This document shows, piece after piece, positions 8,418 to 10,828 of a stretch of 64,000 bases of DNA (positions are counted from its first letter, which is position 1; every line of letters begins with the position of its first letter). The notes beneath the pieces were generated by a model. That model saw nothing but the letters and a program-made list of their open reading frames with translations. It had not been told where the DNA came from and did not search any database. The translations under genes were made by a program, and so were the position numbers. The DNA is from an uncultured Prevotellaceae bacterium (GTDB lineage Bacteria; Bacteroidota; Bacteroidia; Bacteroidales; Bacteroidaceae): contig OMXS01000005.1 of assembly GCA_900315095.1 (NCBI GenBank), positions 1-64,000 of the forward strand, read 5' to 3'.

Positions 8418-8448
8418 TTTGCAGTTTCAGTTATTTACCTTATCTTTG
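8418..8448 (+). promoter_or_regulatory. Promoter of the lipoprotein/radical SAM cassette
   Basis: TTTG (8418-8421), 19-nt spacer, TATCTTTG (8441-8448): a full consensus match. It is followed by a leader of about 150 nt (to 8600) that is purine-rich and contains a small hairpin GGGTG...CACCC near 8529-8545. The leader matches no riboswitch class I know. Confidence 0.8.
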
Positions 8449-8600
8449 CAAAACTAATAGTATCAATTATTTCTCTTGTAGACGGAGAAATAAGAAGACG
8501 CAAAGAAGAATAAAGGTGAGGGCAATGAAGGGTGTAAAGGGCACCCGAAGACTACTCGGACGAGAAGAAGAAAAAGTGAAACACATTAAAACAAAGACTT

Positions 8601-8813
8601 ATGGGAAAACTTAGAAACTGGACTTTAGGCATTATTGGCTCCTCAGTGCTCGCCGCATTGGGATTTTCCGCATGCTCGGGGAACGGACTAAGGCGAGAGA
8701 ATGTGGAGTGCGTTTATGGTCCTCCACCAGAGTTCTACAACGACACGGTGAAGATGCAGAGCATTGAAGCACCCGACACCTCAGAAACCATTCAGGTAAA
8801 GGAAAAGAAATAA
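8601..8813 (+). CDS. Small lipoprotein 1 of rSAM/lipoprotein cassette
   Basis: A 70-residue protein: hydrophobic signal ending in the lipobox GFSAC (Cys25), a short linker, the motif VYGPPPEFYNDTV at about residues 38-50, and a charged tail ending KEKK. Four paralogues follow in the same operon. They share the signal region and the YGxxPxxYx(D/E) motif but little else. I recall families annotated as 'rSAM/lipoprotein system' lipoproteins with a similar YG-P motif after the lipobox. On that basis it is probably an exported, lipid-anchored substrate of the radical SAM enzyme at 9461. The modification itself is inference. First gene after the promoter. Confidence 0.75.
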   Translation: MGKLRNWTLGIIGSSVLAALGFSACSGNGLRRENVECVYGPPPEFYNDTVKMQSIEAPDTSETIQVKEKK

Positions 8814-8850
8814 ACGTCGGAAACACAGAAACACAACAGCAATAGTGCTT

Positions 8851-9066
8851 ATGAAAAGATTGAAGACATGGGCTTTAGGCATCATCGGAACATCAGTGCT
8901 TACGGTACTGGGCATAACGTCGTGTTCTAAAAAAGCTCTTAACAACCATGAAATTGTCGATGTCTATGGACCACCACCTTCAGAATATGTTGATTCTCTC
9001 GACAACTCGGAAACAGAAGTGATAGAAAACAACGACACAACACAAACGATAAAGGATAAGAAATGA
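8851..9066 (+). CDS. Small lipoprotein 2 of rSAM/lipoprotein cassette
   Basis: A 71-residue paralogue of the preceding protein. The first 30 residues are closely similar (KRLKTWALGIIGTSVL against GKLRNWTLGIIGSSVL), showing recent duplication. Lipobox ITSC, then VYGPPPSEYVDSL, then an acidic/Thr-rich tail ending KDKK. The start at ATG 8851 is used. An upstream GTG at 8845 is in frame but adds only two residues. The stop codon overlaps the next start as ATGA (9063-9066), so translation is probably coupled. Confidence 0.75.
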   Translation: MKRLKTWALGIIGTSVLTVLGITSCSKKALNNHEIVDVYGPPPSEYVDSLDNSETEVIENNDTTQTIKDKK

Positions 9067-9287
9067 GGAAAGGAATAACCAAAGCGGCAATAGCAATGAT
9101 TTCGGCAGTGCTCACGGCTCTCGGACTGAGCAGTTGTGACATCATTGGAGGCACTATATCTCACCCGAAGGTGTACGGACCGCCCCCTATGGAGTATGAG
9201 GACACCATAGAAAACAACTCTGAAAACATCCAAGAAACAAACGATTCAACAAAGGCTGAAAGCGAGAATGAAAAAGGGAATAACTAA
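9063..9287 (+). CDS. Small lipoprotein 3 of rSAM/lipoprotein cassette
   Basis: A 74-residue paralogue: signal with ALGLSSC lipobox, motif VYGPPPMEYEDTI at about residues 37-49, and a long Asn/Glu-rich tail. Its N-terminus resembles protein 4 (KGITK start) more than proteins 1 and 2, so the cassette holds two duplicate pairs plus one outlier. It begins four bases inside the preceding gene and ends 20 bases inside the next. Confidence 0.75.
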   Translation: MRKGITKAAIAMISAVLTALGLSSCDIIGGTISHPKVYGPPPMEYEDTIENNSENIQETNDSTKAESENEKGNN

Positions 9288-9483
9288 AGTTGGAATGGCG
9301 TTGGTGTCGGCTGTGCTGGTGGCATTGGGATTTTCGAGCTGCAACCCGTTCAAGAAGATACTTCCGCAACCGCTGGAATACGGCACGCCTGACGTGAGAT
9401 ACATAGAGAAGATCGACTCCGTCGGCGAGAACATGAACGTTCCAGAGCAAAACACAGACAATGGAACAGAAAACCAGCGCTAA
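9268..9483 (+). CDS. Small lipoprotein 4 of rSAM/lipoprotein cassette
   Basis: A 71-residue paralogue: lipobox GFSSC, then EYGTPDVRYIEKI, a variant of the motif in which the Pro run is broken and Asp after the second Tyr becomes Glu. The tail is Asn/Glu-rich. It overlaps the preceding gene by 20 bases and the radical SAM gene by 23, in different frames. The whole operon is therefore tightly packed and probably translated by coupling. Confidence 0.75.
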   Translation: MKKGITKVGMALVSAVLVALGFSSCNPFKKILPQPLEYGTPDVRYIEKIDSVGENMNVPEQNTDNGTENQR

Positions 9484-10561
9484 CGACTACCGACTCGACC
9501 TGCGCCACCGACTGGGACTGGAAATGGCTCGCGTAGTGCAGAACAACTACAGGCGCGAGCACCGACTGACGCAACTGTTTTGGGAATGCACATTGAGATG
9601 TAATGTGCATTGTCGTCATTGTGGCAGCGATTGTCGTCAGATAGCCAACACACAAGACATGCCGCGCGAAGACTTCTTCCGTGTTCTAGATAGCATTAAA
9701 GAGAAAATGGACCCTCACAAGGTGTTCGTCATCGTCACCGGTGGTGAGCCTTTGGTGCGCGAGGACATTGAACTCTGTGGAAAAGGCATCTATGAACGGG
9801 GGTTCCCTTGGGGCATGGTGAGCAACGGACTGATGCTCACACGCGAGAAGCTCATAGCACTTAGGAAATCTGGACTACATTCTATCACCGTTAGTCTCGA
9901 CGGACTAGAGGACGACCACAACTGGATGCGCGGTCACCGCGACAGTTTCCTGCGCGTCAGCGAGGCTCTTGACTACCTCGTGGAGATGCGCGACAAGGTG
10001 GGACTAGTGTTCGATGTGGTGACGTGTGTTAACCAACGCACATACCCGAAACTCACAGAAATACGCGATTTCCTTATAAACAAGGGTGTCAAGCACTGGC
10101 GAATGTTCTCCATCTTCCCTGTGGGAAGAGCAGCAAAAGATCCTGTTTTGCAACTTTCCAACGAACAATACCGCGGCATGCTCGACTTTATCAAGAGAAC
10201 GAGAAAGGAAGGAATCATCAATGCTGCATACGGCTGCGAGGGCTTTCTCGGCAATTATGAGGGCGAGGTGCGCGACTCCCTACTTGGCTGTCAGGCAGGA
10301 ATCAGCGTTGGTTCGGTAATGGCCAATGGTGACATTGCTGCCTGCGCAAGCATCAGGGCAGACTATGCTCAGGGCAATATCTATCGCGATGACTTCCTGA
10401 CTGTATGGGAAAACAAATACCAGCAATACCGAGACCGCTCATGGATGCGCAAAGACGAATGTGCCGATTGCAAGTATTTCCGTTATTGCAAGGGTAACTC
10501 GATGCACCTTCGCGATGCCGATGGCAAACTGATTACATGTCACTTGAAGAGATTATTATGA
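9461..10561 (+). CDS. Radical SAM/SPASM peptide-modifying enzyme
   Basis: A 366-residue cytoplasmic enzyme. The S-adenosylmethionine [4Fe-4S] motif CxxxCxxC is at Cys47-Cys51-Cys54. TGGEPLVRED supplies the GGE SAM-binding motif. The C-terminal SPASM region has cysteines at LLGCQAG, ACAS and CADCKYFRYCKGN, enough for one or two auxiliary Fe-S clusters. SPASM enzymes generally modify ribosomally made peptides. Here the only partners are five tiny lipoproteins encoded around it, two kinds before and one directly after, all overlapping or nearly so. No separate leader-binding RRE domain is evident. This matches what I remember as the rSAM enzyme of the 'rSAM/lipoprotein system'. Substrate and product are not known to me. 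Confidence 0.85.
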   Translation: MEQKTSANDYRLDLRHRLGLEMARVVQNNYRREHRLTQLFWECTLRCNVHCRHCGSDCRQIANTQDMPREDFFRVLDSIKEKMDPHKVFVIVTGGEPLVREDIELCGKGIYERGFPWGMVSNGLMLTREKLIALRKSGLHSITVSLDGLEDDHNWMRGHRDSFLRVSEALDYLVEMRDKVGLVFDVVTCVNQRTYPKLTEIRDFLINKGVKHWRMFSIFPVGRAAKDPVLQLSNEQYRGMLDFIKRTRKEGIINAAYGCEGFLGNYEGEVRDSLLGCQAGISVGSVMANGDIAACASIRADYAQGNIYRDDFLTVWENKYQQYRDRSWMRKDECADCKYFRYCKGNSMHLRDADGKLITCHLKRLL

Positions 10562-10782
10562 GAAAACCATTTCTGAAACTCACCACCCTACTCTGTTCGG
10601 GCATCATTGCGCTGCTCGGACTGGGCGCATGTAAGTCGTCAAAGGCTCTTGAAAAAGAAGAACAGAGAAAACAAAACGACCAAAACGTGAAGCCCATCGA
10701 CCGTGACAACGGGCGCGTAAGACTCATGTACGGGGTGCGACCAACGCCCTATTCTGACAAGATTCACCAAGAAAACAAATAA
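10558..10782 (+). CDS. Small lipoprotein 5 of rSAM/lipoprotein cassette
   Basis: A 74-residue lipoprotein starting at the ATGA that overlaps the radical SAM stop. Lipobox LGAC at about residue 25, a longer charged linker, then the motif near the C-terminus as MYGVRPTPYSDKI. It is the most diverged of the five. It keeps Tyr-Gly, the Pro, the second Tyr and the Asp at the same spacing, though the linker length differs, so those residues appear to be the selected core. An earlier in-frame ATG at 10537 is rejected because it would precede the signal peptide with acidic residues. It is the last gene before a strong terminator. Confidence 0.75.
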   Translation: MRKPFLKLTTLLCSGIIALLGLGACKSSKALEKEEQRKQNDQNVKPIDRDNGRVRLMYGVRPTPYSDKIHQENK

Positions 10783-10795
10783 CCATTAATAATAT

Positions 10796-10828
10796 AAGCA
10801 GGCGAGTTTACTTTAAACTCGACTGCTT
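10796..10828 (+). terminator. Rho-independent terminator of the rSAM cassette
   Basis: A 15-bp stem with one mismatch, 10796-10810 paired with 10813-10828, followed by a T-rich run. Confidence 0.85.

Follow-up and report, generated by a model that had tools for sequence, protein, structure and literature searches.

Radical SAM enzymes of the PlpX type, the spliceases, and their spliceotides were reportedly described by Morinaka in 2018 and Scott in 2022, and a leader-independent tyramine splicing is said to come from Richter in 2024. PlpX presumably belongs to IPR026482, which we take to be the same as TIGR04103. In the splicease literature (PMC10533398, PMC11002830, PMC10373908), the target is X-Tyr-Gly with a variable X, a substrate may carry several such sites, and the enzymes act at N-terminal, internal or C-terminal sites of a protein. 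According to PMC10373908 and PMC11117315, the modification makes known spliceotides inhibitors of proteases. PMC10533398 gives 939 predicted splicease systems, among which TIGR04133 may be counted, and an FtsZ table in which PlpXY modified only two of 16 splice-tag constructs, so that Y-G-L-P alone was insufficient there. In a related system, the enzyme family TIGR03913 lies near TIGR04133 (one enzyme, at locus L190, scores 534 bits to TIGR03913, below its cut-off, 422 to TIGR04103 and 164 to TIGR04133) and its peptides carry X-Y-G near the N-terminus, but these are DUF1843 proteins with no lipobox and not lipoproteins. The family pair TIGR04133/TIGR04134 of NCBIfam is so far a name with no chemistry: both names were absent from the literature searched, where no chemistry was found for this system, and the main text of a RiPP survey of Bacteroidales (PMC10352776) contains neither "lipoprotein" nor "splic".

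The window considered here, a stretch of 64,000 nucleotides from an uncultured Prevotellaceae bacterium, holds a cassette in which five lipoprotein genes surround a single radical SAM/SPASM gene (Table 1), confirmed from the open reading frames and the sequence, as the preliminary description had it. A gap of 37 nt separates the first two lipoprotein genes, and the remaining junctions overlap by 4 nt (lipoproteins 2 and 3), 20 nt (3 and 4), 23 nt and 4 nt (enzyme and lipoprotein 5), so that the count of four overlapping junctions out of five holds, as does the pattern of one lipobox (Cys at residue 25) followed by one Y-G motif in all five peptides. For lipoprotein 2, the list of open reading frames includes an alternative GTG start at 8845. 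The single promoter and terminator proposed to enclose the cassette stood only in part. The promoter is an exact match to a -33/-7 consensus that we take to be of the Bacteroidota type (10 exact sites in the window, 1.39 expected), while terminator-like hairpins, one found against 2.9 expected, are no better than chance.

Table 1. Features of the cassette in the window
Feature	Coordinates	Strand	Length (aa)	Tag and its codons	TIGR04134 (bits; cut-off 39.8)	Remark
Promoter, Bacteroidota-type (TTTG -33, TAnnTTTG -7)	8418..8448	+				exact match to TTTG-N-TANNTTTG
Lipoprotein 1	8601..8813	+	70	VYGPPPEFY (V38-Y39-G40), 8712-8720	15.7, under cut-off	lipobox Cys25
Lipoprotein 2	8851..9066	+	71	VYGPPPSEY, V-Y-G 8962-8970	13.4	
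Lipoprotein 3	9063..9287	+	74	VYGPPPMEY, V-Y-G 9171-9179	17.8	
Lipoprotein 4	9268..9483	+	71	EYGTPDVRY, E-Y-G 9376-9384	26.9	
Radical SAM/SPASM enzyme, TIGR04133	9461..10561	+	366			family profile match
Lipoprotein 5	10558..10782	+	74	MYGVRPTPY, M-Y-G 10726-10734	no match	
Terminator-like hairpin, weak, T-rich tail	10803..10821	+				not above chance

The "rSAM/lipoprotein system" that the preliminary description named is TIGR04133/TIGR04134, and the window enzyme is a full member, with 557.3 bits to TIGR04133 over the curated cut-off of 425; a second copy in the same genome scores 545.6 bits. It has the CX3CX2C cysteines (C47/C51/C54) and SPASM cysteines of the family, seven more conserved cysteines being C259, C277, C295, C334, C337, C343 and C360, and these cysteines are conserved in fractions of 0.993 to 1.0 of 136 enzymes. 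The lipoproteins resemble TIGR04134 proteins in their lipobox and Y-G but differ in that all five fall short of the TIGR04134 cut-off (13-27 bits, the fifth unmatched), lack the CarboxypepD-like domain of that family and come five to one enzyme, a number shared by three other loci, two of which are close relatives, among the 75 counted. They do show the combination of a lipobox, a later Y-G and a nearby TIGR04133 enzyme, which is our own reading of TIGR04134 members rather than a published definition, and they are a minimal form of the TIGR04134 partner with no globular domain. In the 15 lipoproteins of three genomes (those of the window, L009 and L022), no columns are invariant other than M1, G21, C25, Y38 and G39. 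The ratio dN/dS is 0.10-0.26 in nine of ten comparisons (0.13 and 0.10 for lipoprotein 1, 0.13 and 0.19 for lipoprotein 5), dS being saturated in the tenth and above 1.2 in four of the other nine; judged by these ratios, the window lipoproteins are under purifying selection.

In relatives, what the partners of the enzyme have in common on their unlike scaffolds is X-Tyr-Gly, in most cases with a Pro at +3. Of 134 loci, 123 have a tagged exported ORF next to the enzyme, compared with 6/134 and 11/134 in controls; at some loci, the far control zones were truncated where the locus ended. The loci were those whose enzymes score above 350 bits to our own profile and differ from one another somewhere in the first 200 residues; near-identical enzymes remain in this set, and three loci with short flanks were omitted from it. 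This rule replaced a signal-peptide predictor that had missed many true partners. Among the 11 loci with no tagged ORF under the rule, two have a variant tag (L090, L165), in one the enzyme and the tagged lipoprotein form a single fusion (L146), and eight remain with no tag; nor was a tagged ORF found at L153 and L128-L130, four weaker relatives that score under the limit. An "LG-hydrophobic" core appears unusually common in the signal peptides of partners (64/111, compared with 10/182 other candidates), an enrichment that is suggestive only, since the partners are kin to one another and spurious ORFs are among the controls.

The two components also keep company across genomes. In the order of the window, taken to be Bacteroidales, TIGR04134 scores over its cut-off in 42 of 295 genomes, 40 of which have the enzyme at E<=1e-60; in all, 74 of the 295 carry the enzyme. 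In a draw from the family, 27 of 32 genomes with TIGR04134 have the enzyme, itself found in 54/200. At E<=1e-5, an alignment of window-type lipoproteins matches 18 other genomes of the family, every one of which has the enzyme, and many of these matches are longer TIGR04134-type proteins; at a loose E<=0.01, the alignment matches 72 genomes (41 with the enzyme, 31 lacking it) and misses 13 of 54 enzyme genomes. The possibility raised beforehand, that such lipoproteins are as common in genomes lacking the enzyme, is at odds with 40/42, 27/32 and 18/18.

The tyrosine of the tag is kept at 77 of 79 places with the enzyme versus 2 of 6 places lacking it, a scoring that covers 86 of 100 places which are not independent. 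It was done by hand in a few cases: the tag was seen in L054, the Y-G of G456 lies inside a domain and not at the tag, G463 was left out as a 613-aa protein of another kind with MFYGK, and a second domain in the already counted frame of G248 was not entered. In one enzyme-less genome, the enzyme gene is cleanly absent at the syntenic site. Two enzyme-less genomes keep the tag: a draft 94% complete (G199), and one (G296) in which a run of N beside the lipoprotein means that the absence of the enzyme cannot be judged. In enzyme-bearing genomes, unlinked lipoproteins keep the tag in 11 of 13 cases, the exceptions being L136 and L188. What is new here is the X-Tyr-Gly common to unlike partners, its linkage to the enzyme, and the loss of the tyrosine with the loss of the enzyme, all three shown by comparison at the level of sequence.

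These observations support the earlier reading that the enzyme modifies the lipoproteins and, together with the X-Y-G match, turn a bare family name into a specific hypothesis. The best explanation of the whole, in our judgement a modestly probable one, is that the enzymes of TIGR04133 resemble spliceases and have prolipoproteins as their substrates. The five small lipoproteins would between them be the substrates of the cassette enzyme, which would target the Tyr of X-Tyr-Gly-x-Pro-x-x-x-(Tyr/Phe) while the prolipoprotein is cytoplasmic, the signal peptide with its "LG-hydrophobic" core perhaps acting as leader. From the known splicease chemistry, we infer a splice step that would excise tyramine (-135.076 Da per site) and leave a reactive group; its timing before export would follow from cytosolic Fe-S chemistry and the signal peptides of the substrates. 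Export of the processed peptides and their lipidation at Cys25 would follow, leaving electrophiles anchored in the membrane that plausibly inhibit proteases. More tentatively, and with less than even confidence in the whole, an RRE-free splicease with the lipoprotein signal peptide as leader may put alpha-keto-beta-amino acid electrophiles into membrane lipoproteins in about a quarter of the order's genomes (74/295) and in the window cassette, which would then be a minimal five-copy "tethered warhead" array whose Val, Glu and Met side chains could inhibit different envelope proteases. If true, reactive ketoamides would sit on envelope lipoproteins in a large part of the Bacteroidales of gut and rumen, an unexpected place for a modification of the spliceotide type.

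The likeness to PlpX-type spliceases lies in a SPASM radical SAM enzyme and in X-Tyr-Gly sites in the partners, with a variable X and at times several per partner. It is worth pointing out, however, that TIGR04133 loci differ in having no RRE partner such as PlpY, no Nif11 or nitrile-hydratase leader and no recurrent small neighbour, protease or transporter, and that their putative substrates are lipoproteins with signal peptides. The predicted model of the window enzyme has a single N-terminal helix (14-33) and no RRE domain; SuiB aligns to it only from SuiB residue 102. None of the solved structures listed for the comparison is named as a splicease. With 113.6 bits, the enzyme stays far below the TIGR04103 cut-off of 725. 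Over nine TIGR04133 proteins, the best peptide-modifying family is TIGR04103 in six, mycofactocin in two and TIGR03913 in one (TIGR04053 left aside as unassigned), and for the PlpX-like enzymes found, TIGR04133 ranks third or fourth among NCBI families; these ranks point to an only loose relation to PlpX.

The same Tyr-Gly tag could instead undergo another radical SAM reaction, for instance oxidation, epimerisation or a cross-link (C-C or ether) joining Tyr(0) to the +7 aromatic; this is the less likely reading but deserves a hearing. The +7 aromatic is present in.55 of the sites in relatives and in all five window lipoproteins, and the solved structures closest to the enzyme model are SPASM enzymes of what we take to be reactions other than splicing. 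Against it, many partners (the coiled-coil MYGGPNMT and the CYGTPQD types) lack the +7 aromatic and keep Tyr and Gly, the enzyme-less L134 and L186 have lost the Tyr and kept Gly-x-Pro and the +7 aromatic, and the variable X and multi-site partners are as in spliceases. Quite improbable is that the enzyme makes a small cofactor and leaves the lipoproteins, as co-expressed binders of the product, unaltered. Heme enzymes are among the nearest NCBI families, NirJ2 (123.3 bits), TIGR04053 (116.3) and heme b synthase (114.5) being slightly ahead of TIGR04103 for the window enzyme and for several relatives, but the tag is short, stands on unlike scaffolds, occurs more than once within partners, is kept in most unlinked lipoproteins of enzyme-bearing genomes and loses its Tyr when the enzyme is lost, and so bears the marks of a substrate site. 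It is scarcely credible that these are ordinary lipoproteins of an expanded family whose place beside the enzyme is accidental: they are short and have signal peptides in common, so that common descent alone could explain their similarity, but the accident is contradicted by the co-occurrence and the synteny and opposed by the control counts and the purifying selection.

A protease-inhibitor domain was suspected in a repeat protein at locus L189, where Pfam found none. The enzyme tree was dropped as evidence of kinship to PlpX, since long branches make its root and the PlpX-like rows unsafe. Within the tree, the label "CysAdj" clusters by enzyme clade, though the low-scoring clade was the only one that the label covered. 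Partners with CYGPAP stand beside enzymes labelled "distal" as well (L020, L025), so the adjacency of the tag to the Cys probably arose more than once.

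The open frames bear out the cassette as the preliminary description had it, with four short lipoprotein genes, one radical SAM/SPASM gene and a fifth lipoprotein gene, and with four of the five junctions overlapping (by 4, 20, 23 and 4 nt). Of the promoter and terminator said to enclose it, the former has a matching pattern and the latter has a hairpin not above chance. The signal peptide of lipoprotein 3 resembles the NCBIfam family NF033879 ‘smalltalk’, slightly under the cut-off (20.9 of 24.7 bits). The five-lipoprotein set recurs beside the enzyme gene at loci L009 and L022, both from Prevotella MAGs, with enzymes 95% and 91% identical to the window’s, respectively; in L022, lipoproteins 2 and 3 have exchanged order. 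When the 15 lipoproteins of these three genomes are aligned, the positions that never vary are M1, G21, C25, Y38 and G39, in other words the start, one signal-peptide glycine, the lipobox cysteine and Tyr-Gly, in agreement with the lipobox and single short motif noted earlier. The dN/dS was 0.10–0.26 in nine of ten lipoprotein comparisons, the tenth being saturated, and 0.03–0.05 for the enzyme. Of 75 loci whose tagged lipoproteins were counted, 4 have five per enzyme: the window, L009, L022 and L068. L068 (genome G117) is an independent multi-substrate locus, where one enzyme is flanked by five tagged lipobox proteins of unlike scaffolds.

Of 295 genomes from the order, 74 have a match to the enzyme family, TIGR04133, at E<=1e-60 (68 exceeding the cut-off); so do 54 of 200 genomes from the family and 2 of 247 from the phylum draw, one of the two being the window’s own. 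The partner lipoprotein family, TIGR04134, is not equally common without the enzyme: over the cut-off it occurs in 42/295 genomes of the order and 32/200 of the family, and 40/42 and 27/32 of these have the enzyme. An alignment of the window-type lipoproteins matched 18 further family genomes at E<=1e-5, all 18 enzyme-bearing (hypergeometric 4e-12, with kinship ignored and many of the matches being longer TIGR04134-type proteins). Of the 7 genomes matched between 1e-5 and 1e-4, 5 have the enzyme. At E<=0.01 the alignment matched 72 genomes, 41 with and 31 without the enzyme, and gave no match in 13 of the 54 enzyme genomes of the family; many weak matches extend barely past the signal peptide.

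The partners of related enzymes, read at loci from named records and from further genomes, have unlike scaffolds: short tails, a CarboxypepD-like domain, coiled coils, a type with Tyr immediately after the lipobox Cys (ACYGTPQ, ACYGPAP), and a Sec-exported type that begins QYG, one member of which bears a T9SS sorting tail. Common to all is the tag X-Tyr-Gly, mostly with Pro at +3 (Tyr = 0). The preliminary description proposed looking for the motif beside SPASM enzymes. For 134 enzymes with sufficient flank (three loci with too short flanks were omitted), the operon zone was searched for a tagged exported-type ORF; 123 loci have one, versus 6/134 on the opposite strand and 11/134 in a distant zone of the same strand under the identical rule. 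Among the 11 loci without such an ORF, L090 and L165 carry tag variants, and L146 was scored this way because its lipoprotein is hidden in an in-frame fusion to the enzyme. The joined frames of L146 and L198, in reverse order to each other, are either true fusions or the result of lost stop codons. In 182 sites from 157 distinct partners, where Tyr and Gly are fixed by the selection, X varies (E, C, M, V, K and others), Pro is at +3 in.82 and an aromatic residue at +7 in.55 of the sites; 56 of the 157 partners have at least two Tyr-Gly. No other gene recurs much at the enzyme loci, the biggest neighbour families reaching 4 loci. Loci L131–L133, L135, L137, L138 and L140–L142 have tagged proteins and no enzyme within the fetched stretch, but their genomes are enzyme-bearing, and these proteins are possible substrates in trans; in the one at L140, Pfam recognises a T9SS sorting tail.

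Natural losses of the enzyme bear on whether motif and enzyme co-vary. We entered 100 TIGR04134 places over the cut-off (63 from the order, 37 from the family; 86 within fetched loci) and corrected the tag scoring by hand, restoring L054, excluding G463 and reading G456 where the tag lies. The tag was present in 77/79 places of enzyme-bearing genomes versus 2/6 of enzyme-less ones (p 1.1e-4, or 0.006 before correction, with places partly non-independent). Adjoining the enzyme it was present in 66/66 places, with Pro after one or two residues in 61, and away from the enzyme in enzyme-bearing genomes in 11/13. TIGR04133 gave no match at E<=1e-10 in G456, G461, G349 and G296, and weak matches only (46–50 bits) in G263 and G199; G456 and G461 are single contigs.

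Coordinates of features, and the tag in enzyme-less genomes
Feature	Source	Position	Detail
Promoter pattern	window	8418-8448	pattern match
Lipoprotein 3 signal peptide	window	9063-9137	
Radical SAM/SPASM gene	window	9461-10561	four lipoprotein genes before, fifth after
Joined frame	L146	3722-5323 (+)	enzyme, then lipoprotein
Joined frame	L198	1049-2569 (+)	lipoprotein, then enzyme
PlpX-like gene, then repeat protein	L189	4928-7059 (+)	
Second TIGR04133 enzyme	G000, contig C31	103451-104500 (-)	
Tag loss	G263		GNGSPYAKF, Tyr to Asn
Tag loss	G349		EHGTPSIRY, Tyr to His
Tag loss	G456		ENCTSYAKY
Tag loss	G461		VENYAEH
Tag kept, no enzyme	G199		draft, 94% complete
Tag kept, no enzyme	G296		lipoprotein adjoins run of N, which may hide an enzyme gene

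The strongest evidence that the tag tyrosine serves the enzyme is the synteny of G456. The intact locus L196 reads ComM-like gene, enzyme, lipoprotein (EYGMPYAKYEIKG) and 687-aa ACS-like gene; in G456 (L183) the order is ComM-like, lipoprotein (ENCTSYAKYEFRG) and ACS-like, with 13 nt at the enzyme position. The two flanking genes, named tentatively from their sequences, are 83% and 89% identical between L183 and L196, and 77% and 82% between G461 (L185) and L196. The enzyme is therefore absent in G456, where Tyr, Gly and Pro in the tag have all been replaced but the flanking YAKYE is retained. The wide spread of intact loci suggests that the tyrosine was lost rather than gained.

The window tags VYGPPP, EYGTP and MYGVRP match the X-Y-G target of PlpX-type spliceases. 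Passages in PMC10373908 describe multiple processable sites per precursor, and passages in PMC10533398 describe a dispensable leader for PlpXY, as well as splice-tag constructs of FtsZ, of which 2 of the 16 shown were modified, both with GYGLP. The window enzyme falls outside TIGR04103 and lacks an RRE, and the claim is therefore limited to splicease-like action and does not extend to membership of the PlpX family. TIGR04103, which we take to be PlpX’s IPR026482, has relatives in 7/395 genomes of the phylum, none exceeding the cut-off. When four of these were scanned, TIGR04133 ranked third, third, third and fourth among families; the kinship is plausible rather than proven, because for the window enzyme TIGR04103 comes no higher than fifth, TIGR04133 itself included. 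Next to such enzymes, L190 has two peptides, one containing MPYG (DUF1843 by Pfam) and one containing MAYG; L189, from a genome of the window’s family, has a 214-aa protein with a KYGYPC repeat run and no Pfam domain; L193 has a 165-aa protein with the C-terminal end LLYGTPPVPLYQAPSK; and the neighbours of L194 include no evident partner.

In our working model, the cytosolic enzyme would meet the prolipoprotein and excise the tag tyrosine, and export, lipidation at Cys25 and display would follow. With X being Val, Val, Val, Glu and Met in the five peptides, several ketoamide side chains would result. An acidic surface-export signal is known from Bacteroidota lipoproteins; the mature residues +2 to +6 here (SGNGL, SKKAL, DIIGG, NPFKK, KSSKA) are without it, which makes a periplasm-facing place appear more likely. 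As known spliceotide products inhibit proteases (in passages of PMC11117315 and PMC10373908 that cite Scott 2022), our guess would be that the lipoproteins are anchored protease inhibitors.

The TIGR04133/TIGR04134 pair is already known by name. What is new here is the minimal five-copy form, the tag common to unlike scaffolds, the paired cases of enzyme loss and tyrosine loss, and the splicease reading of TIGR04133, for which no published chemistry was found in the literature searched, a set that excludes the key splicease survey (Scott 2022). The weak TIGR04133-like enzymes of L128, L129 and L130 (222–247 bits), at whose loci no tagged partner was seen, possibly have a different function. 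The window’s genome (G000) has a second TIGR04133 enzyme, grouped with L040 and L078; its partner is a coiled-coil-like lipoprotein with MYGGPNMT, and its clade is sister to that of the window enzyme in the enzyme tree.
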